From positions 1 to 34,314 of the forward strand of contig MGWP01000037.1 in NCBI GenBank assembly GCA_001801055.1: a stretch of DNA of 34,314 nucleotides, given 5' to 3'. The DNA is from Gallionellales bacterium GWA2_55_18. Its GTDB lineage: Bacteria > Pseudomonadota > Gammaproteobacteria > Burkholderiales > Gallionellaceae. The notes beneath the pieces are model-generated. The model did no database searches. It saw only the letters and a list, made by a program, of their open reading frames with translations, and was not told the DNA's origin. A program made the position numbers and the translations under genes. The stretch's first letter is position 1; the number at the start of each line of letters is the position of its first letter. This document shows, one piece after another, positions 9,489 to 24,992 of the stretch.

Positions 9489-9500
9489 GCGCGCCCTTTC

Positions 9501-9591: not shown

Positions 9592-9645
9592 AATCAATAA
9601 CTTGCGACAAGTGCAAACTAACGCAAGCAACTCGAAATAACCATA

Positions 9646-9679: not shown

Positions 9680-9824
9680 AATACCAAGTATTGAAATAGA
9701 CGTAACTGGAAACAAGCCGCTTGCTTCCAGTGTCAGAGGTATTTACGCAATCCATTCTGCAGCCATATGATGCCTAATGCAGTTTCATGAAAGCAACTCA
9801 GTTCCGCGATAGCTCCTTTCCAAG

Positions 9825-9853
9825 TTGACATGATACTGAATGTCGGTAAATAT
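9825..9853 (+). promoter_or_regulatory. promoter of the abiE operon
   Basis: A consensus -35 TTGACA lies at 9825-9830. The -10 is less clear: AAATAT at 9848-9853 gives a 17-base spacer and TAAATA one base earlier gives 16. Initiation near 9860 would leave a leader of about 22 bases to the ATG at 9882. Confidence 0.55.
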
Positions 9854-9867
9854 AAGCAACTACCGAC
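9842..9867. promoter_or_regulatory. candidate AbiEi operator
   Basis: GTCGGTA (9842-9848) and TACCGAC (9861-9867) are perfect 7-bp inverted repeats with a 12-base spacer, lying over the -10 and probable start point. AbiEi antitoxins are known to repress their own operon by binding inverted repeats in the promoter, so this is the expected place for the site. Confidence 0.6.
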
Positions 9868-9881
9868 GATATGTATCAGGC

Positions 9882-10484: not shown

Positions 10485-11413
10485 GCGCAGATCAACCGCG
10501 CAACCTCGCCGCCTCTGTGCGTCAACGACTGCTCAATATCTCCAAACGCGATGGAGAGGCATTCGATCTGGTGCTGACGCGTTATGCGCTGGAACGCCTT
10601 TTGTATCGCCTTGGGCAATCCGAGTATCGCGACCAGTTTCTGCTCAAGGGAGCCATGCTGTTTGTTGTATGGGGCGGAGAAATTCACCGCCCTACCCGTG
10701 ATGTTGATCTACTGGGATTCGGCACGAGCGAACTCCCACAGGTGGAGAAGTTTTTCCGGGACATTTGCCAAGAGTCTGTGGAGCCGGATGGGCTGGAGTT
10801 TCTCCCGGACACCATGCGTGCCATAGAAATCCGCGAAGATCAGGAATATCAGGGCGTGCGAGTGCTATTTGAAGCACGCCTGGAAAATGCCGTTATCCCG
10901 ATCCAGATTGATATTGGCTACGGCGATGCCGTGACACCCGCGCCAGAAGATATTATCTACCCCACAGTACTGGATTTTGCCGCCCCCAAGTTGCGTGCTT
11001 ATCCAACCTACACCGTGGTCGCGGAAAAATTCCAGGCCATGGTTTGGCTCGGCATTGCCAATAGCCGCATGAAGGATTTCTATGATCTCTGGGTCATCAT
11101 GCGGAAATTTCCATTTGAAGGTGAAATTCTGAGTGCGGCAATCGAGGCTACCTTTGCGCGGCGCAATACTCTCTTGCCGACCGAAGCCCCTTTAGCCCTG
11201 ACACAAACATTCGCCAACGACGCGGCAAAACAAACGCAGTGGAAAGCCTTTCTGCGCAAGAACGCTTTGCCGGTGGATGACCTGACGTTCCCCGACATTA
11301 TTACGGCTTTGCATGATTTTCTGATGCCACCGACCACGGCAGCCAGAACGGGAATCACCTTCCATGCTACGTGGCCAGCCGGTGGATCGTGGCAAACCCT
11401 GCCCAGCGAATAA
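10481..11413 (+). CDS. abiEii: AbiEii nucleotidyltransferase toxin
   Basis: From the ATG at 10481, 310 residues. It has a nucleotidyltransferase fold: LKGAMLFVVWGG followed by RPTRDVDLLG (the DxD metal-binding motif, about 55-75), a third acidic site in IQIDIGYGD, then KLRAYPTYTVVAEKFQAMV and SRMKDFYDLW, the conserved lysine and aspartate motifs of AbiEii/AbiGii toxins. The same frame is open back to 10325, but that stretch overlaps abiEi and has no family similarity. The toxin is expected to be bacteriostatic, by adding nucleotides to an RNA target in related systems. It is convergent with the small gene at 11471. Confidence 0.9.
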   Translation: MSADQPRNLAASVRQRLLNISKRDGEAFDLVLTRYALERLLYRLGQSEYRDQFLLKGAMLFVVWGGEIHRPTRDVDLLGFGTSELPQVEKFFRDICQESVEPDGLEFLPDTMRAIEIREDQEYQGVRVLFEARLENAVIPIQIDIGYGDAVTPAPEDIIYPTVLDFAAPKLRAYPTYTVVAEKFQAMVWLGIANSRMKDFYDLWVIMRKFPFEGEILSAAIEATFARRNTLLPTEAPLALTQTFANDAAKQTQWKAFLRKNALPVDDLTFPDIITALHDFLMPPTTAARTGITFHATWPAGGSWQTLPSE

Positions 11414-11442
11414 TGGGGTAAATCTCCAAGTCATTACCCCAT
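11413..11442. terminator. inverted repeat between abiEii and the convergent small gene
   Basis: ATGGGGTAA (11413-11421) and TTACCCCAT (11434-11442) are exact inverted repeats with a 12-base loop, beginning on the last base of abiEii. No T-run follows, so it may slow or end transcription only weakly. Confidence 0.4.
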
Positions 11443-11470
11443 TCGGCAGGAGTTAATACCCCGTTCCGGA

Positions 11471-11668
11471 TCACAGTTTCACAAGCCGCCCATCCCCCTG
11501 CTTCATCAGATACTCAACCGAATCCAGAAAAGATTTTCTGGCGTAGAGCTCACGTTGGTCATCTTCAAGCGCTTTGTTGTCGCCGAAGATCAGTTTCTCC
11601 AAGTGTTCGCGGTTTTCCACCTCGATTACAGTCCCTGCCGGTACTGCGCTAATTTGTGCTCTGATCAT
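11471..11668 (-). CDS. small hypothetical protein, 65 residues
   Basis: I do not recognise this protein. It starts MIRAQISAVPAGTVIEVE and ends MKQGDGRLVKL, with a charged helical middle. The ATG at 11668 has an almost ideal site, AGGAGG at 11675-11680 with 6 bases between, which favours this start over a GTG five codons upstream and argues that the gene is real. It faces abiEii and belongs to the same small island, so an accessory or phage-related role is possible, but nothing in the sequence tells which. Confidence 0.6.
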   Translation of the reverse strand: MIRAQISAVPAGTVIEVENREHLEKLIFGDNKALEDDQRELYARKSFLDSVEYLMKQGDGRLVKL

Positions 11669-11729
11669 CTCATGCCTCCTCACCCAATAAGTCTAGTTTT
11701 AGTCAAAAATGGGCTAATTCCGCTTCCGT

Positions 11730-11749
11730 TTGGTCACATCTTGGTCACA
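11730..11749. repeat. paired TTGGTCACA direct repeats, 11-bp period
   Basis: TTGGTCACA occurs at 11730-11738 and 11741-11749, one helical turn apart. The arrangement mirrors the TGTGGCAAA pair beside the tRNA on the other side of the AbiE island. The sequence differs, so it is not a direct-repeat attachment site in itself. Confidence 0.35.
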
Positions 11750-11858
11750 AACGCCACTGGCTGACCGCCCAGTTCCCTTTCGTTGTCGTCAAGGATGTGC
11801 GCCACGACAAAGTGGTCGAGCACCCTTATATCAACGAGTGACTGTTGCACTTCGAACT
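11734..11858 (-). pseudogene. C-terminal fragment of a radC-like gene
   Basis: The minus strand encodes [14 protein letters not shown], almost the same as [14 protein letters not shown] near the end of the intact radC in this window (24181-24855). The catalytic HxH...D part of the JAB domain is missing. What follows (HILDDNERELGG) is not RadC-like, and upstream the frame soon meets a terminator. RadC-type genes are common passengers of integrated islands, so this looks like a leftover from deletion. The upstream limit is approximate. Confidence 0.6.
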
Positions 11859-11907
11859 TGAATCCGCCCCGAAAAAACTTTCCGGTTTGTGGCTCAATTA
11901 TGGAAAT

Positions 11908-11938
11908 AAAAAAGGGGCGCAAGCTGCGCCCCTTTTTT
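11908..11938 (-). terminator. intrinsic terminator of the PPIase gene
   Basis: AAAAAA, GGGGCGCA, loop AGC, TGCGCCCC and TTTTTT form a strong GC stem with A and T runs on both sides. It lies 15 bases after the stop of the minus-strand PPIase gene and would also work in the plus direction. Confidence 0.9.
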
Positions 11939-11952
11939 ACCGTCAATACCAA

Positions 11953-12741
11953 TTATTCGATTTTTGCCTTGGCGCGCAATTCATCAATCGCCTTTTTAAT
12001 CGATTGCTGCTGCAAGCGTTGCTGCAATTGCGGTTTGAGCTCGTCGAACGGCGGCACTTTCAGGTCGCGTATATCGTCAACTGCGATAATATGCCAGCCG
12101 AATTGAGTTTGCACCGGCTCTTTGGTTCTTTCGCCTTTTTTCAGATTAAGCAGCGCGTTGGCAAACGGGGGGACGAAATTGCTCGGTACTGCCCAGCCCA
12201 ATGAGCCGCCCTGCGCCGCAGAACCGGTATCCTTGGATTTTTCAGCGAACTTCTCGAATTTATTGCCCTTCTTGGCGAGCAACGCAATGATGGATTTCGC
12301 TTCCTCTTCCGTTTCGACCAGAATATGGCGGGCATTGTATTCCTTGTTGCCAAGCTTGGCTTTCAGCTTATCAAATTCCTGCTTGAGCTGATCTTCGCTG
12401 ATCGGATGTTTTTTCGCATAGTCCTGCACGAATGCGCCAACCAGCACCGATTGCTTGGCCAATTCGATCTGCTGCGCCACTTCTTCGCTCTTGTTCAGGC
12501 CAAGTTTGTTTGACTCCTGCACCATCACTTCCAGATTGATCATGTCTTCGCGGATCGCTTTGCGCAGTTCAGGGCTGTCTGCCTGACCTTGCGCAACGGC
12601 GACCTTAACACGCATATCCACGCGAGCCTGCGGGATTGAAACACCGTTCACCAATGCGGCAGACTTGTCTTCGGCAAAAGCGGGATTTGCTGCCAGCGCA
12701 CCCAAAATTGCCAGTGCTACTAATTTATTAATTTTCAACAT
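11953..12741 (-). CDS. periplasmic peptidyl-prolyl cis-trans isomerase, parvulin (PpiC/SurA) type
   Basis: A 262-residue secreted foldase. The signal peptide (MLKINKLVALAILGALAANPAFA) has an AFA cleavage site. A helical SurA-like N-terminal chaperone region (about 30-135) follows, then a parvulin domain: YNARHILVETEEEAKSI at about 143-160, GSLGWAVPSNFVPPFANAL at about 186-205 and TQFGWHIIAVDD at about 220-231. It is expected to help outer-membrane or exported proteins fold. It stands alone, with its own promoter and a strong terminator. PpiD-like or foldase PrsA labels are alternatives, but no transmembrane anchor or lipobox is seen. Confidence 0.92.
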   Translation of the reverse strand: MLKINKLVALAILGALAANPAFAEDKSAALVNGVSIPQARVDMRVKVAVAQGQADSPELRKAIREDMINLEVMVQESNKLGLNKSEEVAQQIELAKQSVLVGAFVQDYAKKHPISEDQLKQEFDKLKAKLGNKEYNARHILVETEEEAKSIIALLAKKGNKFEKFAEKSKDTGSAAQGGSLGWAVPSNFVPPFANALLNLKKGERTKEPVQTQFGWHIIAVDDIRDLKVPPFDELKPQLQQRLQQQSIKKAIDELRAKAKIE

Positions 12742-12810
12742 TATTCAGTCCTCTTCAAAAAATAGAAAATCTTAAATTAAATCATTTCCAGCGCTTATAT
12801 TCGTAGCGAC

Positions 12811-12839
12811 ATGCTAAACGCATTTATTCCACATTTCAA
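12811..12839 (-). promoter_or_regulatory. possible promoter of the PPIase gene
   Basis: On the minus strand TTGAAA (12834-12839) and TAGCAT (12811-12816) are 17 bases apart, about 70 bases upstream of the ATG. The match is moderate and other AT-rich options exist nearby. Confidence 0.35.
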
Positions 12840-12842
12840 TTA

Positions 12843-13034
12843 TTAATCTTGCCCCACGGCGCGAAGTATAACATCCGGTGTTGAAAATGCACCTTGAAAA
12901 ATATCGTATTCACCGTCTTTGCCGATCTGTTTATCTTCTGCCGCCAGCGCGCACACCGACTGAAGATCGTGGCATGTGATGACGGCTAATCCATCACTAC
13001 ACAACACCCTTTTAAACTCAGCCTGTTCGCTGTA
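12843..13034 (-). pseudogene. fragment of a class I SAM-dependent methyltransferase gene
   Basis: An open stretch of 63 codons reads EFKRVLCSDGLAVITCHD followed by LQSVCALAAEDK, like the post-motif I part (E-RVL-pDG-vvTCPDLQSV) of methyltransferases that sit in glycan and lipopolysaccharide clusters. It ends with TAA at 12843 and is preceded in frame by TGA at 13035, with no ATG and no SAM-binding N-terminus. It lies just downstream of the orphan rfbC, which suggests decay of a former polysaccharide locus. Confidence 0.45.
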
Positions 13035-13104
13035 TCAAAATACATCCTGCTCACCGGCACCCTACCTGCTTTTTCCAAGCAACTTGATTTTCATGACCGA
13101 ACCG

Positions 13105-13656
13105 TCATGGAAAGATTTCTGCCTGACAAAAAGATACAGCATTTTGATCATTCACAGACAAAATTGGTGCGCATCCTTCCAGCGGCCAATCAATAGCCAA
13201 ATCCGGATCATTCCAAAGTATGGCACGTTCATATTCAGGTGCCCAATAATCAGTGGTTTTATAGAGAAGCTCAGCGTACCCGTCAATCGCAACAAAGCCA
13301 TGAGCGAACCCCTCCGGTATCCATAATATATGCCTGTTTTCAGCAGAAAGAATATTACCCACCCATCGCCCAAAAGTGGGTGATGATTTACGTATATCTA
13401 CGGCAACATCAAATACTTTCCCTGCCACCACGCGAACCAGTTTACCCTGTGCTTGCTTAATTTGGTAATGCAACCCACGCAAGGCATTTCGTGCGGAGCA
13501 GGAGTGGTTATCCTGCACGAAATTGCCTGTTTTGCGCCCAATTAACCGCTCAAACTCTCTCTGGTTAAAACTTTCAAAAAAAAACCCTCTGGCATCATCA
13601 AACACCCTGGGGTTTATGATTAATAAATCGGATATTGCGGTCTGAATAACTTGCAC
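13105..13656 (-). CDS. rfbC: dTDP-4-dehydrorhamnose 3,5-epimerase (RmlC)
   Basis: A cupin of 183 residues that epimerises dTDP-4-keto-6-deoxyglucose on the way to dTDP-L-rhamnose. The family sequence is clear: PRVFDDARGFFFESFN (about 16-31), QDNHSCS, RGLHYQ with catalytic H63, WIPEGFAHGF with H119, LLYKTTDYWAP with the catalytic tyrosine, and WNDPDLAIDWP. The start is GTG, with GAGG eight bases upstream; no upstream ATG fits better. No rfbA, rfbB or rfbD is adjacent, so it is an orphan, and the partners must be elsewhere if the pathway works. Confidence 0.92.
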   Translation of the reverse strand: MQVIQTAISDLLIINPRVFDDARGFFFESFNQREFERLIGRKTGNFVQDNHSCSARNALRGLHYQIKQAQGKLVRVVAGKVFDVAVDIRKSSPTFGRWVGNILSAENRHILWIPEGFAHGFVAIDGYAELLYKTTDYWAPEYERAILWNDPDLAIDWPLEGCAPILSVNDQNAVSFCQAEIFP

Positions 13657-13919
13657 TTGGAAAGCCTCTACAAATCCACATTTTCAAGCAACCAATGCTT
13701 ACCTTGCCCGCTTAAAACATATCCAGACAAAGCTGCGGGTTTCACACTTTGTCGTACTTCCAATGGATGCGTTCGCCAATGCTGTCGCCATCCAACATGG
13801 GACTCGTCAACAAGCTGATAACGGATGGTGTCCTGAAAAAACGCGAGGTCAGCGAGACTACTAAAGCGCTGAGCTCCTGAAACACAAAGTCAAAATACGC
13901 CCCTATCTCTGTAGCAGCG

Positions 13920-13945
13920 CACAGGCCCGCGATTGCGGGCTTGTG
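13920..13945. repeat. GC-rich hairpin in the rfbC upstream region
   Basis: CACAGGCCCGC, loop GATT and GCGGGCTTGTG form an 11-bp stem if one G-U pair is allowed in RNA. A weak T-rich stretch (CATTTTAG) follows on the plus strand. It may act as a weak terminator or be a repeat relic. Confidence 0.4.
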
Positions 13946-14005
13946 CATTTTAGTGCAGGGCGAATGCGATATATTCCAATTCTCTATTTGAAAACGGCAA
14001 CAATC

Positions 14006-14054
14006 ACATAGGGTGCGTTGCACGCACCAGCGAACATGGTGCGTGCAACGCACC
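14006..14054. repeat. REPIN-like element 1
   Basis: Two inverted units, each a small palindrome (GGTGCG-TTG-CACGCACC type), face each other across AGCGAACAT. The head is ATAGGG rather than GTAGGG and the far end is CCCTT, so this copy has decayed ends. It lies about 60 bases after the end of the giant gene and could fold in its 3' untranslated RNA. Confidence 0.65.
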
Positions 14055-14113
14055 CTTCGAAATAACACTTTCAATACATTGCGCTGCCATTATTTGTTGC
14101 GACGTAATACATA

Positions 14114-17100
14114 TTATGGAAGCGCAGCTCCCCGCTGGAACACGGCCACACCGGAAACTGTACCGGCATTGGCGCCACCCTTCTCGAATCCGTAGCTGAT
14201 CCCCGCCGCCACGCCGCCTGCCCCGCCAAACCCACCAGCGATTGCGCCGTGATTAGTCGTGCCGCAAGTCCCGGTACAAGTCACCGCCAATGCGCCTGTT
14301 CCGGTCATTCTGCTATCCGTAAAAAACATGGCGCGCTGTTGAATCGGCACATTTACAGCGGCAGCATCCAGAGTCGCGCCGCCTGCCGTGACATTCACGC
14401 CGACATTCACTGTTTGCGCAGTAAAGTTCGCGCTGAGCGAAGCCGAATTCAGCGTCCCGGCCACTCCCGCTTGATCGGTTGGCAGCGTGTTGCCAACCTT
14501 GGTATAGGCATAGGTTCCGCTCGTCGGCAATGACACAGGGCCGGTCATCAACGGCCCCACTATGGCATGTGCGCCACCGGCAAGGGTGATATTTTGCGAC
14601 GCGTTCGTCGTGCGATCAGTCACTGTTACCACCGTACCTGCATCCCAACGACCCCAGCTTACCGTGTCGCCGCCGATCACGGCGCTGCCCTGATCAGAGT
14701 ATGTGCCGCTCACATGCTGTATCGTAGAGCCGCCGCCGCCAATATTGTCATCGAATTTTGTAAGACCGTTAACATCGGTCAAAACGCGTGCAGCATTATT
14801 GTAGGAACCTCCCACCATGGCCGTCGGCACCGGTGCTGTCGGGTCGCTTATGGAAGTCGCAACCATCCGGTAAGCGGTTGCCGGATCATTGGCTACAGCC
14901 GCACCCAGTGCCGCCACGCCCTGTACAAATTCATACCCCCCAGCTGTACCTTGTCCATCCAGGTTAAACTTGAGGATAGCCCCATCCAGAGCCGCTCCCA
15001 CCAGTTGCCCGGCCAAATTTCCATAGGCTGCTATACCATCCACCGTCACCGTCAGATAACCTGGCTCCCCCGCTCCCCTGCCACTGTCTGCGTAAAATCC
15101 ATTCAGGGTATTGCCATTCAAATATTTTAGCGGCGCATTCGGGGTGTTGGCCAGCCAGTTATGCCCGTTCACTGCCAAGGCCAAGCTCACCGCCACCGTT
15201 TGTGCGGTGAAATTGGCCGTCAGCGAAGTGGAGCCGCCGGTAATAGTGCCATGCACGCCACCGTTCAGGCTGGTCACATCGCCATCGACAAAGTTATACA
15301 CAGCATTGGTTGCCGTCAGCACCTCGGCCAGATAAACCGGCGTGGGTTCCGGCGCGGTGATCCAATGGAATTGCTTGGTGGCCGGTGTATAGCTGAAGCT
15401 TGAAGCATGAACGGATCCCGCGCCCCACTGCCCCCAATTGATCGTGCCGCTACCGGTGCCAACCGCAGTTTGTGCTGCCGAGCCCGATGCTGGCGCAACC
15501 GTTGAACTCCAGCCGCCAGTACCACTCCAGCCATTCAGCACCCCTGACCCGTTGGTAGTGATCGCGGATGAGTTCTGAAATTGCCACGAATTCGCCACCA
15601 CAGTGATGCCGGTCGGTGTGCCCCCGGTTCCCACAGGCGAACTATTGCTAAACGCAATCAGGCCACCCACGTTCATTCCCGTTGCAGGTGCGTCATCCCA
15701 TAAGTTGTATCGGACAATCGCTCCGGCATAGTTCTGTCCGACAAATGTACCGTCAATATTGCCGCCGCAGGTCGCGCAAACCGGTGTGCCGCCCGTAATA
15801 GCCGTTGTTGCCACCTTGATGACCGGTGCATAGTCTTTGAAGCTTGTGCCAGTGCCAGTAGCGTTGTTCATGAAGCTGATTGGTTTATCCGTGCTGCTGG
15901 CCGTCCAATTATTTACCCCCATCGTGCCGGCCAGCGCGATGCTCACCGTCTGATTGGTGAAGTTTGCGCTCAACGTGGCCGAGGTCACACTGCCCGTCGC
16001 CCAAATATCCTGATTGAAGGATGTCGCGGCAACCTGATTGTAGGTATACGTGCTGTTCATCGGCCCGGTATTGGTTCCCGCAACCACGGGTGAATCAAGA
16101 TAACCTTCGGCGCCGTACATATAAGAAGGCAAGGTCATGGTACCGCCCGTGTTCGGCACAAACAGATTTTGCTCGGTCGCACTGACGCTCGCGACCGTAT
16201 CCCACAAACCAAAAGTAATTCCATTCGTTGTCGTGGTCTGCGGCGTTGCCGTAGACGCACCGTTCAAAACATCGGTTCTAAAGCCGGAACCACCGCCATA
16301 ACTCTGGGTGAATGTGGTCGGATTACCTGACGGAGTTACTCCCCCCGATGCGGCAATAAAGTTGAAACCGCCACCGTAAGAACCGGTATAGGCTACTGAT
16401 GTCCCGGTCGCGGCATATGCCGCGAGCGGCCCTGCTGGATTAACGGTCGGCGCGGTGCCCGCGTAAAGCGCAACTATCCCCTGAACGATATCGGTTACCA
16501 GCGCACCCTGTGCGGCGGTTGGCCATATCTTATAGGCGAGGTCTGCACTCCTTGCAGTCGCACCGTTAAAGGCACCGGACATCCATCCGAGATAGCCAGC
16601 GCCAGAACAGGTGCCGGTACAACTAACCGTTGGTGCGGTGCCCGCCTCCAGCGTTGCGTCGAAGAAAGAGGGAGGGCCAGCCGTAATCGGCACGCCCGTT
16701 GCAGCTACCGTCAGATTCTGAGCTGCGATGCTGAAGGCAACACTGGCGGCGATAGTCTGATTGGTAAAATTCGCAGACAGAGTGGCAACCGGCACCGTTC
16801 CGACATTGCCGAATGTGTCGGTCGGCAGCGTGGCACCCATCTGGGTATAGGTGGTGGTGCCCACCAGAGACTGCACATAACCGGCGGTCAACACCGATGC
16901 CGACCCCAATCCCCAGTATGCGCTGGTCGCTCCCAGATTTTTCACCAGCGTGGGAATAACACCCAAGTTGTCGGTAACGATCAACTGGCCGCCAGTCCAA
17001 CGGCCTATGGTCAGACTGCCATCGGGAGTCGTGTAACGATCGCTGGCAACACCGCCGCTGTAGGTAACGCTAGCATCCGCAAAAGCGTTAGCTGCCGCCC

Positions 17101-20100
17101 CGCTTTGCCAGGTTTGCCGTTCGTTGTAATTGACGTGAAGCGACCTGACCAAATTGCCTGCTCCGTCCAATATAAAGCTGGTATTCGGTTGAGCAGCCAG
17201 TGCGCCTATGTTAAACCGGCCTCTTCCCCACGCACCTGCGCTCCCAACAGCCAGATGCGAAAAACTCTCCCAGTTGCCTGCGGACGGGTTTGTGCCTGCT
17301 GTCGGCGCGGTCGCGGTATCAAACACGACGATACCTTGAATAATGTCGCTCACCAACGAATTCACTGTGGCGGTCGGCCAGATGGTGTAGTCAAAATTCG
17401 CACTTGCTGCCGCTGCGCCATTGAAGCCACCGATCAACCTTGCCAGGTAGCTGTTTGCCACACCGCTGCCGCCGGAACACCCGGCACCCGTACACATGAC
17501 TGTCGGTGCATTGGCATCTTCAGAACGCGCATAGAAACCGCCTGCCGTTCCCCCATTTGTTGCATTCAATGCAAATGGCATCCCGGTTGCCGTTGTTGTC
17601 AGAGTCTGATTGGCAATCGTGAAGGCAACGCTGGCATTCACGGTCTGACTGGTAAAGTTTGCAACCAGTGTGGCAGTCGGCGCTGTACCCACATTGCCAA
17701 ATGAGTCGGTCGGTAATGTGGCACCCCGCTGGGTGTACGTGGTCGTACCTATCAGAGACCGGACATAAGCATCCGAAGTGCCCTGCCCCATTGTCCAAGG
17801 CACGCTGATGTTTGCTCCCATATTTTTCACCAGGGTAGGCAATGGCGATACGACAGCATTATCGGTGATGGTCATCGTGCCACCCGTCCAGCGCCCGATT
17901 GCGCGGCTGCCATCCGGTAGCATGTAATAGTCGTTGGCCGTGCCGCCACTGAACGTGACCGTGGCATCCGTATAGACAGGTGTAGCGGGCGAGGTACTCC
18001 ACGTGGCTTGCTCCCGATAACCGGAGTGGAGCGCTTTGACCAGGTTGCCTGACCCATCCAACACAAAGTTGGTATTGACCAGAGGAGTGGCGGTGCTGAG
18101 TACACCCCTTTGATACGACCCGGTAGAGCCTACAGTAGGTTGTGCCCATGCCGACCACAGCCCTGCAGCAGGATATGTCTGAACGCTCGGTGCGATGGCG
18201 GCAGTGAACGCCACCAACCCTTGAACCGAATCGCTCGCCGGCGAACCCACAGCTACTGTCGGCCAGATGTTATAAGACATTCCAGCATTGGCGGCAACAG
18301 CCCCGGCAAAACTGCCGCCAAGATCAGCGCTGTAGCCAGATGCGCCTGCGGCACAGGCCCCGGTAGTGCAACTTGTTGCCAATGCCCCGGCATTGGGAAC
18401 GCTGAAGCCGCCGATCGAGTCAACCGGCATGGCGGTTCCAATCACGTTAAAGGTTCCCGCCATTGGGCCGGTGCCCATCGTCAAGTTCACTGCCGCGTCA
18501 ACCAGTTGACTGGTGAAGTTGGCAACAAGGCTCGCGCTGTTCAGCACACCAAGGGTGCCGAAGGCATCAACCGGGGTGGTATTACCAACCTTGGTGTAAG
18601 CAGCCGACCCCACCAGCGATGTCACATAGTTGGCTGGCGGCGGCAAAAGCACTGTCCACAGACTGGCGACAGGAGTGTAGGTATATACATTGGCCGGTGT
18701 AGCGTTATCCGTCACTGTCACCGTAGCATTCATCCAACGTCCGCCATAGATGCTGTTGTCGGAAAGTTTGAAGGTATCCGCAGCAGTGCCGCCGCTCCAC
18801 TTAATGTCCGCACCGCTGGCAGTGGTGATAGATGGAGTAAGTACCGTGCCATTCTGGTTAGCCTGCACCTGAAACGGCATGTTGCGCGCTTCAACCAGAT
18901 TGCCGCTGCCATCCAATACATATTTAGTGTTTGGCTGTAGCGGGTTAGTCGGCGCAAAGGCTTCGTTAAAACCACCAGCCGTTGCCACCGGGAACATCGC
19001 TACTCCGATAAAACTACCGGCAACAGCCGGGTTGTTGTAGGCGGCAACCGGAGCATTCGCGGCAATTGTCGTGGCATTGGTATTAACCGTCGCCAGACTG
19101 GTAGTGGAAGCGGTCAAGGCTGCGGCTGCGTTTGCGCTGGCGGTTTGAGCTGCTGTGGCTTGTGCTTGTGCCGTAGCAGCATCGGTGGCTGCCGTACCCG
19201 CTGCCGTTGCAGCGGTAGTGACTGCGGTCGCCGCAGTTGAGACGGCAGTTTGCGCCGCAGATGCCTGGGTGCTGGCAGTGCCCGCATCGGTGGCAGCCGT
19301 ACCCGCTACCGTTGTCGCAGTAGTGACTGCGGTGCTGGCCGCCGTCGCCGCTGGCGCTACCAGTGCGGCTTGCGTAGTTGCTGTGTTGGCAGCCGTTTGG
19401 GCCGTTGTTGCCGCTGTTACAGCATCAGCCACGTTGGTCAGGCCGGTAGTTCGTGCCGTTTGTGCGCTCGTTAACAAATTTGCCGCTGCGGTTTGGGCGG
19501 CGGCAGCGGCAGCTTGCTGCTGCTGTGCAATCGTCAGCTGATTTTGTGCAATTGTCAGTTGCGCCTGCGCACCGACTAAATCACCCGCTGCCTGCAAAGT
19601 GGCAGCTTGGGCAGCAGCAGCCTGGGCTGCTGTCGCTGCAGCCTGGGCGGCGGCGGCAGCAGTTTGTGCGGCGGTGAGCTGTGTGGAAACCGAGGTCTGT
19701 GCGGCGGTAATCGTAACATTCTGAGTGGTCGCTGCGGTCAGATTGGTATTTGCCGTGGCCAAGTTGGATTGAGCTGTAGCGAGTGCGGCCTGAGCGGCAG
19801 CCTGCGCCGCTGTCAATGCCGTATTCTGATTGGTCGCCGTGGTCAAATTGGCATTTGCCGTGGCCAAGTTGGATTGAGCTGTAGCGAGTGCGGCCTGAGC
19901 GGCAGCCTGCGCCGCTGTCAATGCCGTATTCTGATTGGTCGCCGTGGTCAGGTTGCTATTTGCCGTGGCTAAATTGTTGGTCGCCGCAGTCAGCGCATTC
20001 TGTGCGGCAAGCTGCGCCGCAGTCAAGCTTGTGTTGTTCGTGCTGACTGTAGTCGCGGCTCCTTGCACGGCAGCATTGGCGGTTTGCAAAGTAGCGTTGG

Positions 20101-22048
20101 CGGCTTGGGCTGCGGCAAGCGCCGGTGCGGCGGTCGTATCGGCAAATGTTGCATTTGCAGCCAATTGAGTTGCCGCAGTAGTGGTTTGAGTGGTGGCTAT
20201 ATTGGCCGCTGTAGTAGCGGCAGTAGCATTGTCAGCAGCAAGTGTAGCATTCGCCGGAGTAAGTCCACTCGCCGTAGCCACCGCAGGGCTTGCTGTTCCG
20301 ATATTGCTGTTGGCTGTCGCAATCGCCGTGGTAGCGGGCGTAGTTACAACTGGAGCCAATGCATTGGCCGCCGTCACCGCAGCAGTCGCCGCATTAACAT
20401 TCGTCGCGGCAGTTGTCACCGCCGTTGATGCCGACGTTGTGACAACAGGCGTTATCACCGAAACCGTTGAGTAGGCTGTGGCCGCACCGGTAACCAGCGG
20501 GCTTGCCGTCGTGATGGCCGTTGATGCCGGTGCAATATCAACCGGCAACAATGCCGCCACTTGGGTGTTGGCCGTTTGCACAGCTGTGACAGCGGCCGCA
20601 GCAGTGTTTGCTGCAAGCAATGCAGCATCCGCAGCCGCTTGCGCCTGAGCCGCAGCCACACTTTGCGTCACCGTTAAAACTTGCCCGGTGTTAGTGGTGG
20701 CTGTTCCAGTCGTGATATTCACCGTCGTGCCGCCAGTAGCAATCGCCGTGGTGGGCACATTCTGGGTGGTTGGTGGCGGCGTAATTACCGGCACAACCAT
20801 TACGGGTGGCGCAACCACCGGTGAAACGGGAGTTTGTATAAGTCCTGCATTGGGCGGGACTGTATCCACACCTGCAGATACCCGCATGGGCGCTATTGGC
20901 TCTGAAGGCGCTGTGACTATGGTTGGGGCTGGTGCTGGTGCCGGTGCCGGTGCCGGGGCTGGTGCCGCAGCCGTGGTTGCTCCTTGCGCAGCACCGCCAG
21001 TTGAACCGCCATCGGTTGCGCCGCCAGTTGCGCTCGCTGTTGACGATGGAGCGGTTGACGTAGCACCTCCCGCCGCCGCTTCCTGGCTTCCGCCAGTTGC
21101 CGCAGTAGTATCGGAGGTCTGCCCTGAACTTGGCGAAGCGGCTTTTTCAGTGCCGGCCTGTTTGGTTTCTGCGGCAGCGCCTTCCTGCTTGGCTTCTTTG
21201 GTGTCGCCCTTTGCTTCGCTACTGCCCTTATCAGCCTGCTTGCTGTCTTTGCCGCCCTCTTTGGCCTCACCCTTACCGCCTTCTTTTTTATCTTCTTTCT
21301 TTTCCTCTTTATCGCTGCTGGCGGTTTTTTGCTCCTGCTTTGCTTCAGCCTTCTCTTCTTTCTTTTCCTCTTTCTTCTCCGCCTTGGCTTCTGGCTTGGC
21401 CGCCTCGGCAACCGTAAACACCTTGGTATTTATCGGTTGCACCTGTGGTGCTTGATTCATGCCGCCCGCAAAACCCATCTGATTGGGCAATACATTGATG
21501 GTGCCTTTGTCGGTAGTCAGCGTAGTTTCACCCACGTTCACCTTGTTGTAAGCCCCGGCAGGCGCGATTTGCGCCAAAGGACTGCCGGGCACAATCAGGA
21601 AAGTTTCATGGTCGGTACCGCGAATGCCAATTGTTGCTGCCGGTGTGGTGATTTTATAATTTTGCTTATTGGCTTGTCCGATCAAACCGGTGACCGCACG
21701 AAAACCGCCCTTGAACAGCGAGAAGAAACTTTTCTCACTGCCATCCTGTTTGCCGTCAAAGGCGAATTGATCAAACTTCATTTTGGTATCAGCGCGCACT
21801 GCAACAAAGCCGCCATCCCGCATCTTGACTTGTGCGGAGGATGAAGGCGCGGATGTCAGTGTGTCGCCCTCGCTGATCGCATCGCCCTTTTTTGCTGGGC
21901 GGGCTTGCCCTGCGGAATTGGTAACTTGCACATCGCCGTTAACAAATTGCACATGCCCCGCTACCGCCGCATGAACCACTTGTGACATGCCTGCCAGACA
22001 GGCAATCGTTACACCGAGGCAAGCAAGTAATTTGTTAAAATTCTTCAT
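14114..22048 (-). CDS. giant exported FecR-domain protein with six tandem beta-barrel-like modules
   Basis: 2644 residues. A signal peptide (cut after VHA, residue 27) leads to a FecR domain, about 29-150 (AGHVQFVNGDVQV to TPAATIGIRGTDHE). Then come a Lys/Glu-rich linker (about 216-302), a Pro-Ala run (about 361-373) and a long Ala/Thr/Gln/Asn region of helical character (about 440-1000). Six modules of 250-300 residues follow, marked by the motif ANFTxQTV near residues 1175, 1462, 1758, 2027, 2278 and 2540. Each carries a GRW or GxW strand before that motif and GxFxGAxA...IWP...VQGIVAF-like sequence after it. This second half resembles the TbpB-type barrel (G-F-G...A...G...GvF). Five modules carry a CTGxC-like cysteine pair. 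No lipobox fits well. It follows the Slam-like barrel gene after 20 bases, with GAGGTG as ribosome site, and is its likely cargo. Function is unknown; adhesion or ligand capture at the surface is inferred. Confidence 0.82.
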   Translation of the reverse strand: MKNFNKLLACLGVTIACLAGMSQVVHAAVAGHVQFVNGDVQVTNSAGQARPAKKGDAISEGDTLTSAPSSSAQVKMRDGGFVAVRADTKMKFDQFAFDGKQDGSEKSFFSLFKGGFRAVTGLIGQANKQNYKITTPAATIGIRGTDHETFLIVPGSPLAQIAPAGAYNKVNVGETTLTTDKGTINVLPNQMGFAGGMNQAPQVQPINTKVFTVAEAAKPEAKAEKKEEKKEEKAEAKQEQKTASSDKEEKKEDKKEGGKGEAKEGGKDSKQADKGSSEAKGDTKEAKQEGAAAETKQAGTEKAASPSSGQTSDTTAATGGSQEAAAGGATSTAPSSTASATGGATDGGSTGGAAQGATTAAAPAPAPAPAPAPAPTIVTAPSEPIAPMRVSAGVDTVPPNAGLIQTPVSPVVAPPVMVVPVITPPPTTQNVPTTAIATGGTTVNITTGTATTNTGQVLTVTQSVAAAQAQAAADAALLAANTAAAAVTAVQTANTQVAALLPVDIAPASTAITTASPLVTGAATAYSTVSVITPVVTTSASTAVTTAATNVNAATAAVTAANALAPVVTTPATTAIATANSNIGTASPAVATASGLTPANATLAADNATAATTAANIATTQTTTAATQLAANATFADTTAAPALAAAQAANATLQTANAAVQGAATTVSTNNTSLTAAQLAAQNALTAATNNLATANSNLTTATNQNTALTAAQAAAQAALATAQSNLATANANLTTATNQNTALTAAQAAAQAALATAQSNLATANTNLTAATTQNVTITAAQTSVSTQLTAAQTAAAAAQAAATAAQAAAAQAATLQAAGDLVGAQAQLTIAQNQLTIAQQQQAAAAAAQTAAANLLTSAQTARTTGLTNVADAVTAATTAQTAANTATTQAALVAPAATAASTAVTTATTVAGTAATDAGTASTQASAAQTAVSTAATAVTTAATAAGTAATDAATAQAQATAAQTASANAAAALTASTTSLATVNTNATTIAANAPVAAYNNPAVAGSFIGVAMFPVATAGGFNEAFAPTNPLQPNTKYVLDGSGNLVEARNMPFQVQANQNGTVLTPSITTASGADIKWSGGTAADTFKLSDNSIYGGRWMNATVTVTDNATPANVYTYTPVASLWTVLLPPPANYVTSLVGSAAYTKVGNTTPVDAFGTLGVLNSASLVANFTSQLVDAAVNLTMGTGPMAGTFNVIGTAMPVDSIGGFSVPNAGALATSCTTGACAAGASGYSADLGGSFAGAVAANAGMSYNIWPTVAVGSPASDSVQGLVAFTAAIAPSVQTYPAAGLWSAWAQPTVGSTGSYQRGVLSTATPLVNTNFVLDGSGNLVKALHSGYREQATWSTSPATPVYTDATVTFSGGTANDYYMLPDGSRAIGRWTGGTMTITDNAVVSPLPTLVKNMGANISVPWTMGQGTSDAYVRSLIGTTTYTQRGATLPTDSFGNVGTAPTATLVANFTSQTVNASVAFTIANQTLTTTATGMPFALNATNGGTAGGFYARSEDANAPTVMCTGAGCSGGSGVANSYLARLIGGFNGAAAASANFDYTIWPTATVNSLVSDIIQGIVVFDTATAPTAGTNPSAGNWESFSHLAVGSAGAWGRGRFNIGALAAQPNTSFILDGAGNLVRSLHVNYNERQTWQSGAAANAFADASVTYSGGVASDRYTTPDGSLTIGRWTGGQLIVTDNLGVIPTLVKNLGATSAYWGLGSASVLTAGYVQSLVGTTTYTQMGATLPTDTFGNVGTVPVATLSANFTNQTIAASVAFSIAAQNLTVAATGVPITAGPPSFFDATLEAGTAPTVSCTGTCSGAGYLGWMSGAFNGATARSADLAYKIWPTAAQGALVTDIVQGIVALYAGTAPTVNPAGPLAAYAATGTSVAYTGSYGGGFNFIAASGGVTPSGNPTTFTQSYGGGSGFRTDVLNGASTATPQTTTTNGITFGLWDTVASVSATEQNLFVPNTGGTMTLPSYMYGAEGYLDSPVVAGTNTGPMNSTYTYNQVAATSFNQDIWATGSVTSATLSANFTNQTVSIALAGTMGVNNWTASSTDKPISFMNNATGTGTSFKDYAPVIKVATTAITGGTPVCATCGGNIDGTFVGQNYAGAIVRYNLWDDAPATGMNVGGLIAFSNSSPVGTGGTPTGITVVANSWQFQNSSAITTNGSGVLNGWSGTGGWSSTVAPASGSAAQTAVGTGSGTINWGQWGAGSVHASSFSYTPATKQFHWITAPEPTPVYLAEVLTATNAVYNFVDGDVTSLNGGVHGTITGGSTSLTANFTAQTVAVSLALAVNGHNWLANTPNAPLKYLNGNTLNGFYADSGRGAGEPGYLTVTVDGIAAYGNLAGQLVGAALDGAILKFNLDGQGTAGGYEFVQGVAALGAAVANDPATAYRMVATSISDPTAPVPTAMVGGSYNNAARVLTDVNGLTKFDDNIGGGGSTIQHVSGTYSDQGSAVIGGDTVSWGRWDAGTVVTVTDRTTNASQNITLAGGAHAIVGPLMTGPVSLPTSGTYAYTKVGNTLPTDQAGVAGTLNSASLSANFTAQTVNVGVNVTAGGATLDAAAVNVPIQQRAMFFTDSRMTGTGALAVTCTGTCGTTNHGAIAGGFGGAGGVAAGISYGFEKGGANAGTVSGVAVFQRGAALP
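19745..19970. repeat. 105-bp tandem repeat inside the giant gene
   Basis: Two nearly identical 105-bp units begin at 19761 and 19866, with a decayed third start near 19971. They encode a 35-residue unit (ALTAAQAAAQAALATAQSNL followed by ATANxNLTTATNQNT) in the Ala-rich helical region. The near identity points to recent duplication. Confidence 0.85.
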
Positions 22049-22068
22049 GATGACACCTCACACAAAAA

Positions 22069-24087
22069 TTATTTGAAATCGCGGCGGATGGTTAATGACA
22101 CGTCGGTACGGTCCGAACTGTATATAGCCAGATTGGAAGTTTTTTTGGAAATTGCGATTTGCGGCTTGATCGTCCACAGCTTGTCGAAATGCCAATTTAC
22201 GCCAAGAGACAAATCAGCAGTGGTTTCACTGCGCCTCGCCATAATCAAATTATTCAAATTGCCATAATCGGCTTTTTGCCAGCCTACGCTGGCAACCCCT
22301 TCAGATTGGTCCGTCATTCCAACTTGCCCACCGACTCGAAAACCTTCAAAGCGTTTTTTTCCGTCGGTACGTCCACCATTTGGCAATCCGGCGGATATTA
22401 CAGGCGCGACATCAAGCTCTTTCCCAAAATAGGCACTGCCGAACAAAGCGTTTTTGCTGTCCGGAAATATATGCACCCACCCGCCCCCGGCAATGATCTG
22501 GTCGGTATTTCCCTCAATACGCGCATCGGTAGTCGGCGAAGTAGGTGGAAAACCTGTTGCCCGACTTTCGCCATACTGCGCAAAAGCGCTCATCTGGTTG
22601 GCAGGGCTGAAGACATGCTGCCACTCCGCGCTCAACCCAATTGAATCGCGACGCATGGTGTTGGCGGTATAAGCCTGCCCACCGGTCAATGACAGTTTGT
22701 AGGTATCCCGCTCACCGGCGTACATCACGCCGACACGACCATCCAGGCTAACCGAATCGTAAGCGGTCTGGGTCATATTGCCATGCTGGCGCAAATCGGC
22801 TCCACCATACACACCCCAGCTGGTATTCAAACTATGGCTGATTTCGCCTCCCGCATTAACCCCTTCATAGACACCCGTAAGCTTGGCGCCGGGCTGCAAT
22901 TGATTGCCTGGAAATAAACCGCTCCACGGGGAATTAGGTGCAAATGTAAATATCTGAGTGCTGCTGCTGGCGATGTTGCTGTCATGCCCCACGATGCCCT
23001 CGACATACCCGCTGATGCGGGTCTGCTTGGCCTGCTCAAAGGCGATAATTGCATCCAGATATTTCTGGATAACTGCGCGCGCCGCTGCCGGCGGGTTTTG
23101 TTTCATCACTTCATTGAATTCAGTTTCGGCGCGCTGCAAGTCGCCAAGCTGATAATAGGCGCGCGCCATATCGAGACGCGCACCGGCGAAATTCGGATCA
23201 ACCGCCAGCACCCGCTCGAAAGCGAGCGTCGCCTTGTCCGCCTTGCCGCTATCCAGTGCGGAAATGCCCAGCAGGTAGTCGAAACGCACTTCGCCGGAGC
23301 GGTCAAATTCAAGCGGTTCCAACAGGGCATAGGCTTCGGCAGGTTTGCCGTTTTTAAGAAGAGCATCGGCATCGCGCAGCGGCTTCTCGCTTGCTTCCGC
23401 CTCGGCCTGCTTCCTTGCTGCGGCTTCGGCGCGCAGGCGCGCTTCCTGTTCGGCTTTGGCCTCCTGCTCGGCTTTGGCACGCGCTTCCGCTTCACGCTGT
23501 GCCTGAATGGCTCGCGCATCCGGCTTTTCGCCTATTTTCGCGTCTGGCTTGGCCTTTTGGGCAGCAGCCTTTCTGGCCTTGCCCGGCACCGCTTGGATTT
23601 GTGCCCCGGCTTGTTTTCCGGCTTCGGCAAGCAGTATAGGTTTCTGCTCGCCCTGTTCAGCTTCGGCAAGGTGCAATGTGCTGCCCGCATCGGTCACTAC
23701 TGCATTACCCTGCAATGAAATCGACAGACTGTTGCCGTCGATTTTGGTGTTATATGCCAGCATTCGATCAAGATTGATCACCAAACGCGTGCGTCCGGCG
23801 GATTGGACAATATTGGCGCTACGCAAATCCCCTTCAGCAAAATGCTGGATAGACTTGCCCAACTCGTTTGCGGTATCGGGAAAATCGAGCACGATGCGCG
23901 GCGGGCTGTCGGTGGTAAATCCGGTTGGCAAACTACCCAAGGGTTGCATCAGCTCAACCTTGATGATGGTCGCCCCGCTATCGATGCCACCGATGTTCAG
24001 CGCGGTAATGCTGTTCTGTGCGCATACGCTGCTTACCGCCAGCATTGATCCAGAAAATATCCAACCTGCCGAGCACATGAATTTCAT
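22069..24087 (-). CDS. Slam/DUF560-like outer-membrane protein with AMIN-like and TPR regions
   Basis: 672 residues. The signal peptide is cut after VCA (residue 23). Residues about 27-127 resemble an AMIN domain (IIKVELMQPLGSLP, PPRIVLDFPDTANEL, SAGRTRLVINLDR), as in PilQ, which would bind peptidoglycan. An Ala/Lys/Glu-rich linker (about 140-235) is followed by TPR-like helices (about 237-345: ADALLKNGKPAEAYALLEPL, VLAVDPNFAGARLDMARAYY). From about 357 the sequence alternates like transmembrane beta strands, starting GYVEGIVGHDSNI and ending DVSLTIRRDFK. TPR plus such a barrel is the layout of surface lipoprotein assembly modulators; the added AMIN and linker are unusual. It is first in an operon with the giant gene, so it probably moves that protein across the outer membrane. 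Other TPR-barrel porins remain possible. Confidence 0.75.
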   Translation of the reverse strand: MKFMCSAGWIFSGSMLAVSSVCAQNSITALNIGGIDSGATIIKVELMQPLGSLPTGFTTDSPPRIVLDFPDTANELGKSIQHFAEGDLRSANIVQSAGRTRLVINLDRMLAYNTKIDGNSLSISLQGNAVVTDAGSTLHLAEAEQGEQKPILLAEAGKQAGAQIQAVPGKARKAAAQKAKPDAKIGEKPDARAIQAQREAEARAKAEQEAKAEQEARLRAEAAARKQAEAEASEKPLRDADALLKNGKPAEAYALLEPLEFDRSGEVRFDYLLGISALDSGKADKATLAFERVLAVDPNFAGARLDMARAYYQLGDLQRAETEFNEVMKQNPPAAARAVIQKYLDAIIAFEQAKQTRISGYVEGIVGHDSNIASSSTQIFTFAPNSPWSGLFPGNQLQPGAKLTGVYEGVNAGGEISHSLNTSWGVYGGADLRQHGNMTQTAYDSVSLDGRVGVMYAGERDTYKLSLTGGQAYTANTMRRDSIGLSAEWQHVFSPANQMSAFAQYGESRATGFPPTSPTTDARIEGNTDQIIAGGGWVHIFPDSKNALFGSAYFGKELDVAPVISAGLPNGGRTDGKKRFEGFRVGGQVGMTDQSEGVASVGWQKADYGNLNNLIMARRSETTADLSLGVNWHFDKLWTIKPQIAISKKTSNLAIYSSDRTDVSLTIRRDFK

Positions 24088-24121: not shown

Positions 24122-24150
24122 ATCGTATCCCCCTGCCACGGCACAGTCAA
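24122..24150 (-). promoter_or_regulatory. sigma-70 promoter of the Slam-like / FecR operon
   Basis: On the minus strand TTGACT (24145-24150) and TACGAT (24122-24127) are separated by exactly 17 bases. The start would fall near 24115, 28 bases before the ATG at 24087, which has AGGGA about 7 bases upstream. It lies in the 93-base gap after radC. Confidence 0.65.
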
Positions 24151-24180: not shown

Positions 24181-24855
24181 TCATATCAGCCCCTTCTCCG
24201 CAAACGACAACACCTGCCCAACCGCCACAACGAAGTGATCCAGCACGCGCACGTCCACCAGCCCCAAAGCCTGTTTCAGCGCGGCGGTGAGGTGCTGGTC
24301 TGACTGGCTCGGTTCGGCCACACCGGAGGGATGGTTGTGCGCGAGAATCACGGCGGCGGCATTGTGCGCCAGCGCGCGCTTGACCACTTCGCGCGGATAC
24401 ACGCTGGTCTGACCTAACGTGCCATGAAATAGTTCTTCAGAAGCGATCACGCGATGCTGTGTATCGAGAAACAGCACCAGAAAAACCTCCTGCTGGCGCC
24501 CGCCGAGCAAGAGTTGCAAATAGTCGCGCACCGCACCCGGCGAGTTGAGCGCATCGCCGCGTTGCATCTCCTCCTTCAGTGCGCGTTGCGACATTTCCAT
24601 TACCGCTTGCAGTTGCACGAATTTCGCCTGCCCCATGCCGTGCATGTCGCAGAAATCTTTTTCACTGGCAGAGAACAGCTTGGTGAGATTGCCGAAGCGT
24701 GTGAGCAGGCCACGCGCCAAGTCCACCGCGCTTTGCCCGACCACGCCAGTGCGCAGAAAGATCGCCAGCAGTTCGGCATCGGAGAGCGAGGCTGCGCCTT
24801 TCTGCAATAACTTCTCGCGTGGTCGCTCGAATTCAGGCCAATCGGTGATTGCCAT
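24181..24855 (-). CDS. radC: RadC family JAB-domain protein
   Basis: 224 residues from the ATG at 24855. An N-terminal helix-hairpin-helix-like part ([24 protein letters not shown], then [19 protein letters not shown]) leads to the JAB/MPN domain with [15 protein letters not shown], the metal-binding H-x-H...D pattern, ending [10 protein letters not shown]. The biological role of the family is unsettled despite its name. The frame is open for 44 more codons upstream, but these come from a REPIN. GGAGG at 24860-24864, four bases before 24855, together with the usual family N-terminus ([17 protein letters not shown]), fixes the start. Order radC / coaBC / dut is as in E. coli. Confidence 0.93.
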
Positions 24856-24864
24856 TCGACCTCC

Positions 24865-24929
24865 GTAGGGTGGGCAAGTTGCCCACCGTTTTAATGTCCG
24901 CGTGGGCAGATAATACCTGCCCACCCTAC
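24865..24929. repeat. REPIN-like element 2, next to the radC ribosome site
   Basis: GTAG plus GGTGGGCA-AGT-TGCCCACC (24865-24887) faces an inverted partner ending CTGCCCACCCTAC (24917-24929). The CTAC end directly abuts the GGAGG of radC on the minus strand, so the hairpin would lie immediately upstream of the radC start in the mRNA. Confidence 0.8.
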
Positions 24930-24946
24930 ACACCATCCCATCCAAA

Positions 24947-24992
24947 CGGGCATGACAAGTTGCCGCCCCTGATAATAAACTTGCCATGCCCG
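24947..24992. repeat. long hairpin upstream of coaBC
   Basis: CGGGCATG, one mismatch, CAAGTT (24947-24961) pairs with AACTTG, mismatch, CATGCCCG (24978-24992) around a 16-base loop. With the neighbouring REPIN and the CTAG-type palindrome it fills most of the 308-base space between radC and coaBC, in which no gene is seen. Confidence 0.6.

Follow-up and report, generated by a model that had tools for sequence, protein, structure and literature searches.

A predicted FecR-linked exporter and giant cargo of the type XI secretion family in a relative of Gallionella

The window, a 34,314-nucleotide stretch of DNA from an iron-oxidising relative of Gallionella, contains a two-gene operon that probably encodes an exporter of the type XI secretion system (T11SS) family together with its cargo; export and surface exposure are predictions from sequence and structure models. 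We read the pair as a member of an undescribed FecR-linked T11SS branch in Gallionellaceae and other Burkholderiales. The arrangement of the original prediction, a barrel gene followed 20 bases later by the gene for a 2644-residue exported protein, is confirmed, and both reading frames are open on the minus strand. The gene for outer-membrane protein (OMP) P0002 (positions 22069–24087; 672 residues) encodes an AMIN domain, a linker, a TPR domain and a predicted 14-strand barrel, and is followed by the gene for the putative cargo P0001 (14114–22048). The parts of both proteins described below are located on the same strand.

P0002 begins with a PilQ-like segment that comprises a signal peptide and the AMIN domain (residues 1–152; 23632–24087). 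The charged Lys/Glu/Ala-rich linker (23368–23640) is partly helical, with low pLDDT at residues 128–189 and a long helix at residues 191–245. The TPR-type helical domain (residues 241–354; 23026–23367) is supported by two TPR families above the Pfam cut-off and by the AlphaFold2 model, in which helices at residues 191–354 precede an outer-membrane barrel of 14 predicted strands (residues 356–671; 22075–23022) with pLDDT above 90 in most blocks. The AMIN-like, charged, TPR-like and barrel regions proposed earlier were thus all recovered. Slam barrels have 14 strands. A periplasmic TPR domain at the N-terminal side, as found here by Pfam and AlphaFold2, characterizes T11SS/Slam exporters, and a passage on NilB (PMC8406197) supports it as a T11SS feature.

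The expected Slam-type barrel is borne out by the predicted strand number and by the close family, which matches SlipAM (PF04575, DUF560). P0002 itself scores 18.3 bits against SlipAM as a whole protein and 19.9 bits for residues 220–672, both below the cut-off of 22, so that the assignment holds for the OMP family and not formally for P0002. At E ≤ 0.01, 36 of the 39 homologous OMPs match SlipAM and 16 match TPR_Slam, and an 81%-identical OMP copy from the same bin reaches 24.2 bits against the cut-off of 22 in a whole-genome search. Also under the SlipAM cut-off are the AMIN-bearing OMP of locus L204, for which SlipAM is not listed at E ≤ 0.01, and that of locus L075, for which it is likewise not listed. 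A second SlipAM locus in the bin (C13, L003) resembles a paralogue, but the radC ends of the locus and the window share 86% identity, and the initial 106 bases of the locus match the region of the window at the start of proS. The locus may therefore belong to a related strain binned together, and it is not taken as proof that one cell has two systems.

The AMIN domain of P0002 scores 29.1 bits against PF11741 (cut-off 20.5), and residues 10–150 are 59% identical to PilQ of the same bin, in which a Secretin domain was confirmed. Judged by sequence, the domain is atypical and resembles the PilQ N-terminus of the genus; in PilQ it is carried by a secretin, whereas in P0002 it is fused to a Slam-like exporter. 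AlphaFold2 modelled this region with low confidence (pLDDT blocks of about 39–69). The claim that the exporter gains an AMIN domain stands for P0002, but as a local addition: five Slam-like OMPs with an AMIN fusion were seen in 76 genomes of the genus, and most relatives of the exporter have none. The same AMIN type is also present on TpsB, DUF1302, adhesin and M48-like proteins of the genus, and it is perhaps a shuffled peptidoglycan tag. Two papers describe PilQ AMIN domains that bind septal or polar peptidoglycan and recruit the machine (PMC5285504, PMC10653833). By analogy with PilQ, the domain may direct P0002 to the septum or poles, a prospect that we rate just short of even. If such labels act outside PilQ, envelope placement would be a modular trait. 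No paper combining an AMIN domain with two-partner secretion was found in the open-licence literature.

P0001 starts with a signal peptide (21968–22048), the most likely cleavage position of which is the signal peptidase I site VHA/AVAG, an Ala-x-Ala-type site; a loose lipobox-like pattern is located at Cys17. In the family, 76 of 77 N-termini were compared, with start codons picked by script and a few of them clearly wrong: 68 have an Ala-x-Ala-type site, eight a strict lipobox, and 16, P0001 among them, the loose pattern. T11SS cargos have a Sec signal and are lipidated or soluble; the signal of P0001 is likely of type I. The suggestion that P0001 is not a lipoprotein agrees with its Ala-x-Ala-type site, but because of the pattern at Cys17 it is graded only as likely. 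The FecR domain region (residues 28–215; 21404–21967; Pfam match 62–146) lies at the cargo N-terminus, as proposed, and scores 36.7 bits against a cut-off of 24 when residues 1–215 are scanned alone; the whole 2644-residue protein gave no match to Pfam or NCBIfam at E ≤ 1. Farther along are a Lys/Glu-rich linker (residues 216–300; 21149–21403) and an Ala/Thr-rich spacer, probably helical, with 105-nt repeats in its coding sequence (residues 461–1000; 19049–20668).

P0001 continues with six modules of about 260 residues, delineated by iterated HMM searches: module 1 (residues 1030–1284; 18197–18961), module 2 (1302–1581; 17306–18145), module 3 (1617–1866; 16451–17200), module 4 (1865–2136; 15641–16456), module 5 (2144–2384; 14897–15619) and the C-terminal module 6 (2382–2644; 14117–14905). 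The motif ANFT occurs six times, once per module. Modules 5 and 6 were also modelled together, with pLDDT 89.6 and pTM 0.87. Foldseek comparison of this model with 350,542 PDB chains gave 11 matches at E ≤ 1e-3: ten chains from TbpB entries, of which one is a TbpA–TbpB complex, and one Acinetobacter baumannii hemophilin. Rank 12 is unrelated, and ranks 13–15 are Vibrio harveyi HphA, a TbpB C-lobe and an fHbp complex. The TM-scores of the TbpB matches are low (0.20–0.25 by query), and one HphA reaches 0.41 by target. By sequence, TbpB_B_D is not listed for any of 35 module pairs (Pfam, E ≤ 1), and the module profile found only weak matches in the PDB (E > 5). The predicted fold of the modules is consistent with the C-terminal handle and eight-strand barrel of TbpB and HphA. 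The proposed relation to the TbpB fold and the count of six modules are upheld; the placing of the likeness in the second half of each module is not, since each whole module reads as a handle and barrel-like lobe.

The gene pair is conserved in related genomes, as had been anticipated. Of 78 loci from named genomes, 66 have a FecR-family gene immediately after the OMP gene (−100 to +200 nt), the position expected of a cargo encoded next to its exporter. An overlapping set from a search for relatives comprises 36 loci, and in 34 of them FecR adjoins the OMP, at a distance of up to about 340 nt or with ORF ends that overlap. As a base rate, each of 13 genomes contains 0–5 matches to the FecR family PF04773. 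Five loci of the first set (L093, L097, L114, L130 and L140) yielded no FecR ORF though sequence remained, and L097 contains a module fragment. Partner size ranges from 225–311 residues for FecR alone, in 22 operons, up to 2949 residues, and 40 operons contain closed FecR-plus-module partners. The FecR-only partners carry no barrel module, and a model in which the barrel alone is the export signal leaves them unexplained. Across 39 operons, pairwise OMP distances correlate with those of FecR (r = 0.785) and of the last module (r = 0.62), with partial correlations of 0.66 and 0.29, values that ignore species phylogeny and include modules near saturation (mean distance 0.59). The constant partner of the OMP is FecR, not the module, a pattern that would be consistent with docking or retention by FecR.

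Retention of the FecR domain at the periplasmic face of the exporter is a tentative proposal, to which we give appreciable but minority weight. It competes with export of the whole protein by the same route, after which P0001 would be released, re-bound or lipid-anchored at the surface, with FecR as just another outer domain; we give this alternative similar weight. Lipidated cargo is the classic T11SS case, passages on HrpC and hemophilin establish that soluble cargo can carry signal peptidase I signals (PMC8406197), and the mixture of cleavage sites in the family, including the looser pattern of P0001, accommodates either fate. However, FecR is kept in operons without modules and its divergence follows that of the OMP more tightly than module divergence does, and FecR domains elsewhere act in the periplasm, according to part of PMC5192318.

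Two further explanations dispense with export of P0001 or make it secondary. The best PDB structure matches of the OMP are BcsC, EstA and PelB, the best 50 structural matches listed include no Slam chain, and TPR-containing chains are among the best 60 matches listed in a PDB sequence search with the OMP profile. P0002 could be a polysaccharide exporter of the BcsC/PgaA/PelB type, with P0001 as a periplasmic or matrix partner that is not translocated. BcsC and PgaA barrels have 16 strands; against the 14 predicted for P0002, the SlipAM matches of the homologues and the Slam-substrate-like fold of the modules, this explanation is very improbable. It is unlikely, if less so, that the FecR-module protein acts mainly as a sensor that reports the state of the exporter or envelope to a signalling partner such as a nearby CHASE2 cyclase. 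A gene family exemplified by a CHASE2–guanylate cyclase is located beside the operon, but at only eight of 79 loci, and sensing needs no six large TbpB-like lobes. The precedent is LysM-FecR, described in part of PMC5192318 as encoded beside CHASE2 histidine kinases in Burkholderiales and Pseudomonas aeruginosa.

In the T11SS reading, P0001 would leave the cytoplasm via Sec and be cleaved by signal peptidase I. By analogy with TbpB, Skp would probably keep it from folding in the periplasm. The TPR/barrel protein would recognise the C-terminal handle-barrel module, as suggested by the C-terminal specificity motif of Slam, and thread the chain out, so that the six lobes could fold outside in succession. 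The N-terminal FecR domain may fold inside and dock at the periplasmic face of the exporter; the low-charge spacer would then cross the pore, and the lobes would project from the cell as a tethered fibre. The PilQ-type AMIN domain would tie the exporter to peptidoglycan, perhaps at the septum or poles. The domain anatomy is based on sequence and models, and we infer the steps after Sec export. A combined proposal is rather unlikely to hold in full. In it, FecR would be an obligatory docking and retention module that fixes a giant multi-lobed adhesin in a Slam-type pore or, in some operons, acts for an IgGFc-binding-like lipoprotein. Within the Gallionella group, shuffling would have placed a PilQ-derived AMIN domain on Slam, on two-partner proteins and on further proteins of the envelope, as a portable label for septal or polar peptidoglycan.

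The closest known system is Slam1–TbpB (T11SS, also TXISS or DUF560), in which a SlipAM-family OMP with TPR and barrel is likewise found beside a Sec-signal cargo with handle-barrel lobes; in contrast, P0001 starts with FecR, has 2644 residues and six lobes and is probably not lipidated, and P0002 has an AMIN domain. The soluble hemophore systems HrpB–HrpC and HphA share the handle-barrel fold and, likely, a cargo without lipid anchor, but their cargos are single-lobed and lack FecR. LapA-type adhesins are exported by type 1 secretion and their N-terminal part stays in the exporter to hold the giant adhesin; P0001 would share this retention idea by inference only. Multi-TbpBBD proteins of Sphingomonas and Psychrobacter, and Pls of Haemophilus parahaemolyticus, described in part of PMC12282271, carry two or three copies of the handle-barrel unit or have a long helical repeat ahead of the barrel, whereas here up to six copies follow an N-terminal FecR and the modules lack a Pfam TbpBBD match. 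Multi-lobed, helix-bearing or soluble T11SS cargo is already known in smaller form from passages of PMC12282271 and PMC8406197, which tempers the novelty claimed for a giant multi-lobed non-lipoprotein cargo. The LysM-FecR/CHASE2 operons described in part of PMC5192318 also encode an exported FecR-domain protein in Burkholderiales, but with a peptidoglycan-binding LysM partner and a histidine kinase and no exporter.

In agreement with the claim that the combination is undescribed, no such system was found in the open-licence literature, which also yielded no description of a FecR-domain T11SS cargo and nothing on FecR with type XI secretion or FecR domains with Gallionella; FecR is absent from its nine papers that combine two of DUF560, T11SS, TXISS and NilB. 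A Lysobacter cluster described in part of PMC11233812 combines a Slam and a TbpB-like lipoprotein with FecR in its classic role as a regulator. According to PMC12282271, the seven experimentally verified T11SS all belong to animal-associated cluster 1. The operons described here would add a branch, conserved among free-living iron oxidisers and further Burkholderiales, in which FecR is a new fixed cargo domain, and name a candidate major surface protein for Gallionella-type bacteria. The partner range of 225–2949 residues offers a way to probe the limits of the translocon, and operons that naturally lack a barrel module make exporter recognition directly testable.

A promoter-like site, TTGACT-17-TACGAT, is located upstream of the exporter gene (24122–24150, minus strand); it is rated weak because the region contains 10 such sites against 7.9 (sd 3.4) after shuffling, within the shuffle range. 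The sole Rfam match at the gathering threshold is a tRNA. Downstream of the cargo gene, a stem-loop of 12 pairs (13919–13946) is terminator-like on the plus strand.

The operon consists of the exporter gene P0002 (672 aa; 22069-24087, minus strand) and, 20 nt behind it, the cargo gene P0001 (2644 aa; 14114-22048, minus strand). The exporter and the fold of its cargo are of a known kind, the type 11 secretion system (T11SS). The outer-membrane protein (OMP) P0002 contains TPRs and an AMIN domain that exceeds the Pfam cut-off. Its match to the Slam barrel family SlipAM (PF04575) is under the cut-off of 22 bits (18.3 bits for the whole protein, 19.9 bits for residues 220-672). The bin has another copy, on contig C13, that is 81% identical to P0002 and passes the cut-off, and among 39 homologous OMPs scanned singly SlipAM is matched at E<=0.01 in 36 and TPR_Slam in 16. 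The AlphaFold2 model of P0002 (81 sequences; mean pLDDT 79.8, pTM 0.63) has helices between residues 191 and 354, followed by 14 strands between residues 356 and 671; prediction quality is poor for the linker and for the AMIN part. Foldseek matches the model to BcsC, EstA, PelB, and OmpG, with a TM-score by target of 0.70 for one OmpG chain, and the best 50 matches include no Slam chain.

In P0001, the signal peptide and the FecR domain (36.7 bits against a cut-off of 24) fall within residues 1-215. They are followed by a Lys/Glu-rich linker, a low-charge linker, a spacer of ~540 residues with 105-nt repeats and 74% Ala/Thr/Gly/Ser/Asn, and six modules. Each module contains one ANFT motif, and five of the six have a close cysteine pair. 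The modules do not match the TbpB_B_D model. The predicted structure of modules 5 and 6 is confident (pLDDT 89.6, pTM 0.87), and its comparison with 350,542 PDB chains by Foldseek resulted in 11 matches at E<=1e-3: ten chains of TbpB entries (one a TbpA-TbpB complex) and one Acinetobacter baumannii hemophilin. Rank 12 is an unrelated chain, and ranks 13-15 are Vibrio HphA, a TbpB C-lobe, and an fHbp complex. The global TM-scores of the matches are low (0.20-0.25 by query), indicating a topological match to TbpB and hemophilin, not a close superposition. TbpB, fHbp, and hemophilins are given as verified T11SS cargo in sections of PMC12282271, and the title of PMC8560813 describes the hemophore of A. 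baumannii as Slam-dependent.

When GTDB genomes were scanned once with the alignment of OMPs, 401 relatives were identified, 80 of which, corresponding to 78 distinct loci, were kept. At 66 of the 78 loci, a FecR ORF starts -100 to +200 nt behind the OMP gene. At the remaining 12, FecR is positioned just upstream of the OMP gene in three (L145, L151, L152) and in an overlapping ORF in L141, the sequence stops within 240 nt of the OMP gene in three (L107, L109, L137), and no FecR was found at five (L093, L097, L114, L130, L140), of which L097 has a module fragment. In a relatives search of 36 loci, a set that overlaps with that of the scan, the OMP gene has the FecR neighbour up to ~340 nt away or with overlapping ORF ends at 34; there is no such neighbour in L054, and L061 encodes a module protein without FecR. 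Because matches to PF04773 are rare (0-5 per genome in 13 genomes), chance adjacency of OMP and FecR is very unlikely.

The closed OMP-FecR pairs of the window, of the second operon in its bin (L003), and of the 78 loci differ in cargo. FecR is combined with 1-6 modules in 40 pairs (501-2949 aa), stands alone in 22 (225-311 aa), and is 155 aa long in two. In one of these two, L144, the FecR ORF (9119-9586) overlaps a four-module ORF of 1584 aa (9573-14327), which is either a natural split or a frameshift. Of the 22 FecR-only operons, 13 have an IgGFc-binding-like gene as the immediate upstream neighbour of the OMP gene (at most 400 nt away, or overlapping), but none of the 40 module operons does; the assignment is based on one scanned example (PF17517, 229.8 bits). 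Such exported proteins are encoded in L102 (8274-9854), L101 (8100-9800), and L110 (8194-9840), and ten further operons share the layout of IgGFc-like, OMP, and FecR-only genes. Three IgGFc-like proteins inspected by eye look like lipoproteins, with LTACGGG or LTGCGGG. The IgGFc-like proteins may represent another type of cargo for this exporter branch. Because every pair contains FecR, this domain is a more plausible candidate for the part in invariable contact with the exporter. Correlations of pairwise distances in 39 operons agree with this (OMP-FecR 0.785, OMP-module 0.62; partial 0.66 versus 0.29), although they are uncorrected for species phylogeny and the modules are near saturation.

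P0001 probably leaves the cytoplasm via Sec. It would most likely be cut by signal peptidase I, as 68 of 76 N-termini of the family have an Ala-x-Ala-type site, in contrast to 8 with a strict lipobox; the signal peptide of P0001 itself has an Ala-x-Ala-type site and a loose version of the lipobox. The protein would then be held unfolded; Skp keeps TbpB unfolded, as described in part of PMC9090332. The OMP may recognise the C-terminal module, the chain would be threaded through, and the six lobes would fold outside. The main alternative is complete secretion of the cargo, FecR included. In the preferred mechanism, FecR would stay in place, serving as dock and tether. Of this scheme, the domain anatomy is based on the present data, and we infer the steps that follow Sec export.

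The literature searched contains no description of FecR as a fixed cargo N-terminus, of six-lobed cargo reaching 2949 aa, of AMIN-fused exporters, or of FecR-only partners with an IgGFc-like lipoprotein, IgGFc itself being outside the search. FecR does not occur in the main texts of two T11SS surveys. Cargo with two or three lobes, and helical repeats, are already covered by published work on cluster-1 T11SS (PMC12282271); therefore, size and multiplicity are extensions, not new principles.

Over its residues 10-150, P0002 shares 59% identity with the N-terminus of the PilQ encoded in the same bin, the secretin domain of which was confirmed by Pfam. AMIN is matched at E<=1e-8 in 70 of 76 genus genomes, mostly in PilQ-length ORFs, of which ~20 were inspected and one was Pfam-scanned, the remainder being called PilQ by length alone. 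Eight genus genomes encode non-PilQ AMIN proteins in this survey, which leaves out one 53-residue fragment from G016. AMIN is joined to Slam-like OMPs (window, G017, G016, G008, G081), TpsB/ShlB-type proteins (G020, G099, G016), a DUF1302 protein and a surface-adhesin E (both G016), and two proteins without family assignment (G016, G099). It also forms the C-terminus of M48-like peptidases in G017, G097, G099, and twice in G016 (L203, L205, L208, L209, L210). M48 is over the cut-off only in L203 and L205, under it in L208 and L210, and not listed by Pfam in L209. AMIN is not listed by Pfam at E<=0.01 in L069, L072, L073, L074, L206, L207, and L208, so that its assignment there depends on 48-58% BLAST identity to P0002. 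In two midpoint-rooted trees with 21 PilQ rows, one from another family, the AMIN fusions form one cluster apart from PilQ (support 100/99 with 8 fusions, 90/92 with 17). The AMINs do not separate by host protein; in G016, for example, that of TpsB groups with that of DUF1302 (98/88). The pattern is consistent with a single domain, putatively derived from PilQ, that was shuffled among envelope proteins. Positions 1-6523 of contig C89 from G020 (L202) form a two-partner secretion locus with a large TpsA-like ORF, identified by eye, followed by AMIN-TpsB and a protein in which Pfam matches FecR in two stretches; thus, FecR also accompanies another outer-membrane exporter class.

The organism belongs to the Gallionella group, known as iron oxidisers. 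Its bin (1.69 Mb in 78 contigs, 71.5% complete) contains the window as contig C37. The second OMP-FecR operon of the bin (L003, contig C13; 531 and 2155 aa) lacks AMIN, is 79% identical in DNA to that of the window over the conserved part, and may be from a co-binned strain. It sits behind another radC end, and radC is directly upstream of the window operon (24181-24987). A RadC ORF is present in 16 of the 36 relatives-search loci and the radC family in 14 of 79 loci of a neighbour-family survey, counts that may be too low owing to ORF overlap rules. CHASE2-guanylate cyclase family genes, assigned from one scanned example, adjoin the OMP-FecR operon in L106 (13835-16072) and seven other loci. 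Downstream of the cargo, on the same strand, is a gene for a PpiC/SurA-type prolyl isomerase (11953-12741), which might aid in cargo folding; a similar-looking gene, identified by eye, follows the cargo in L058.
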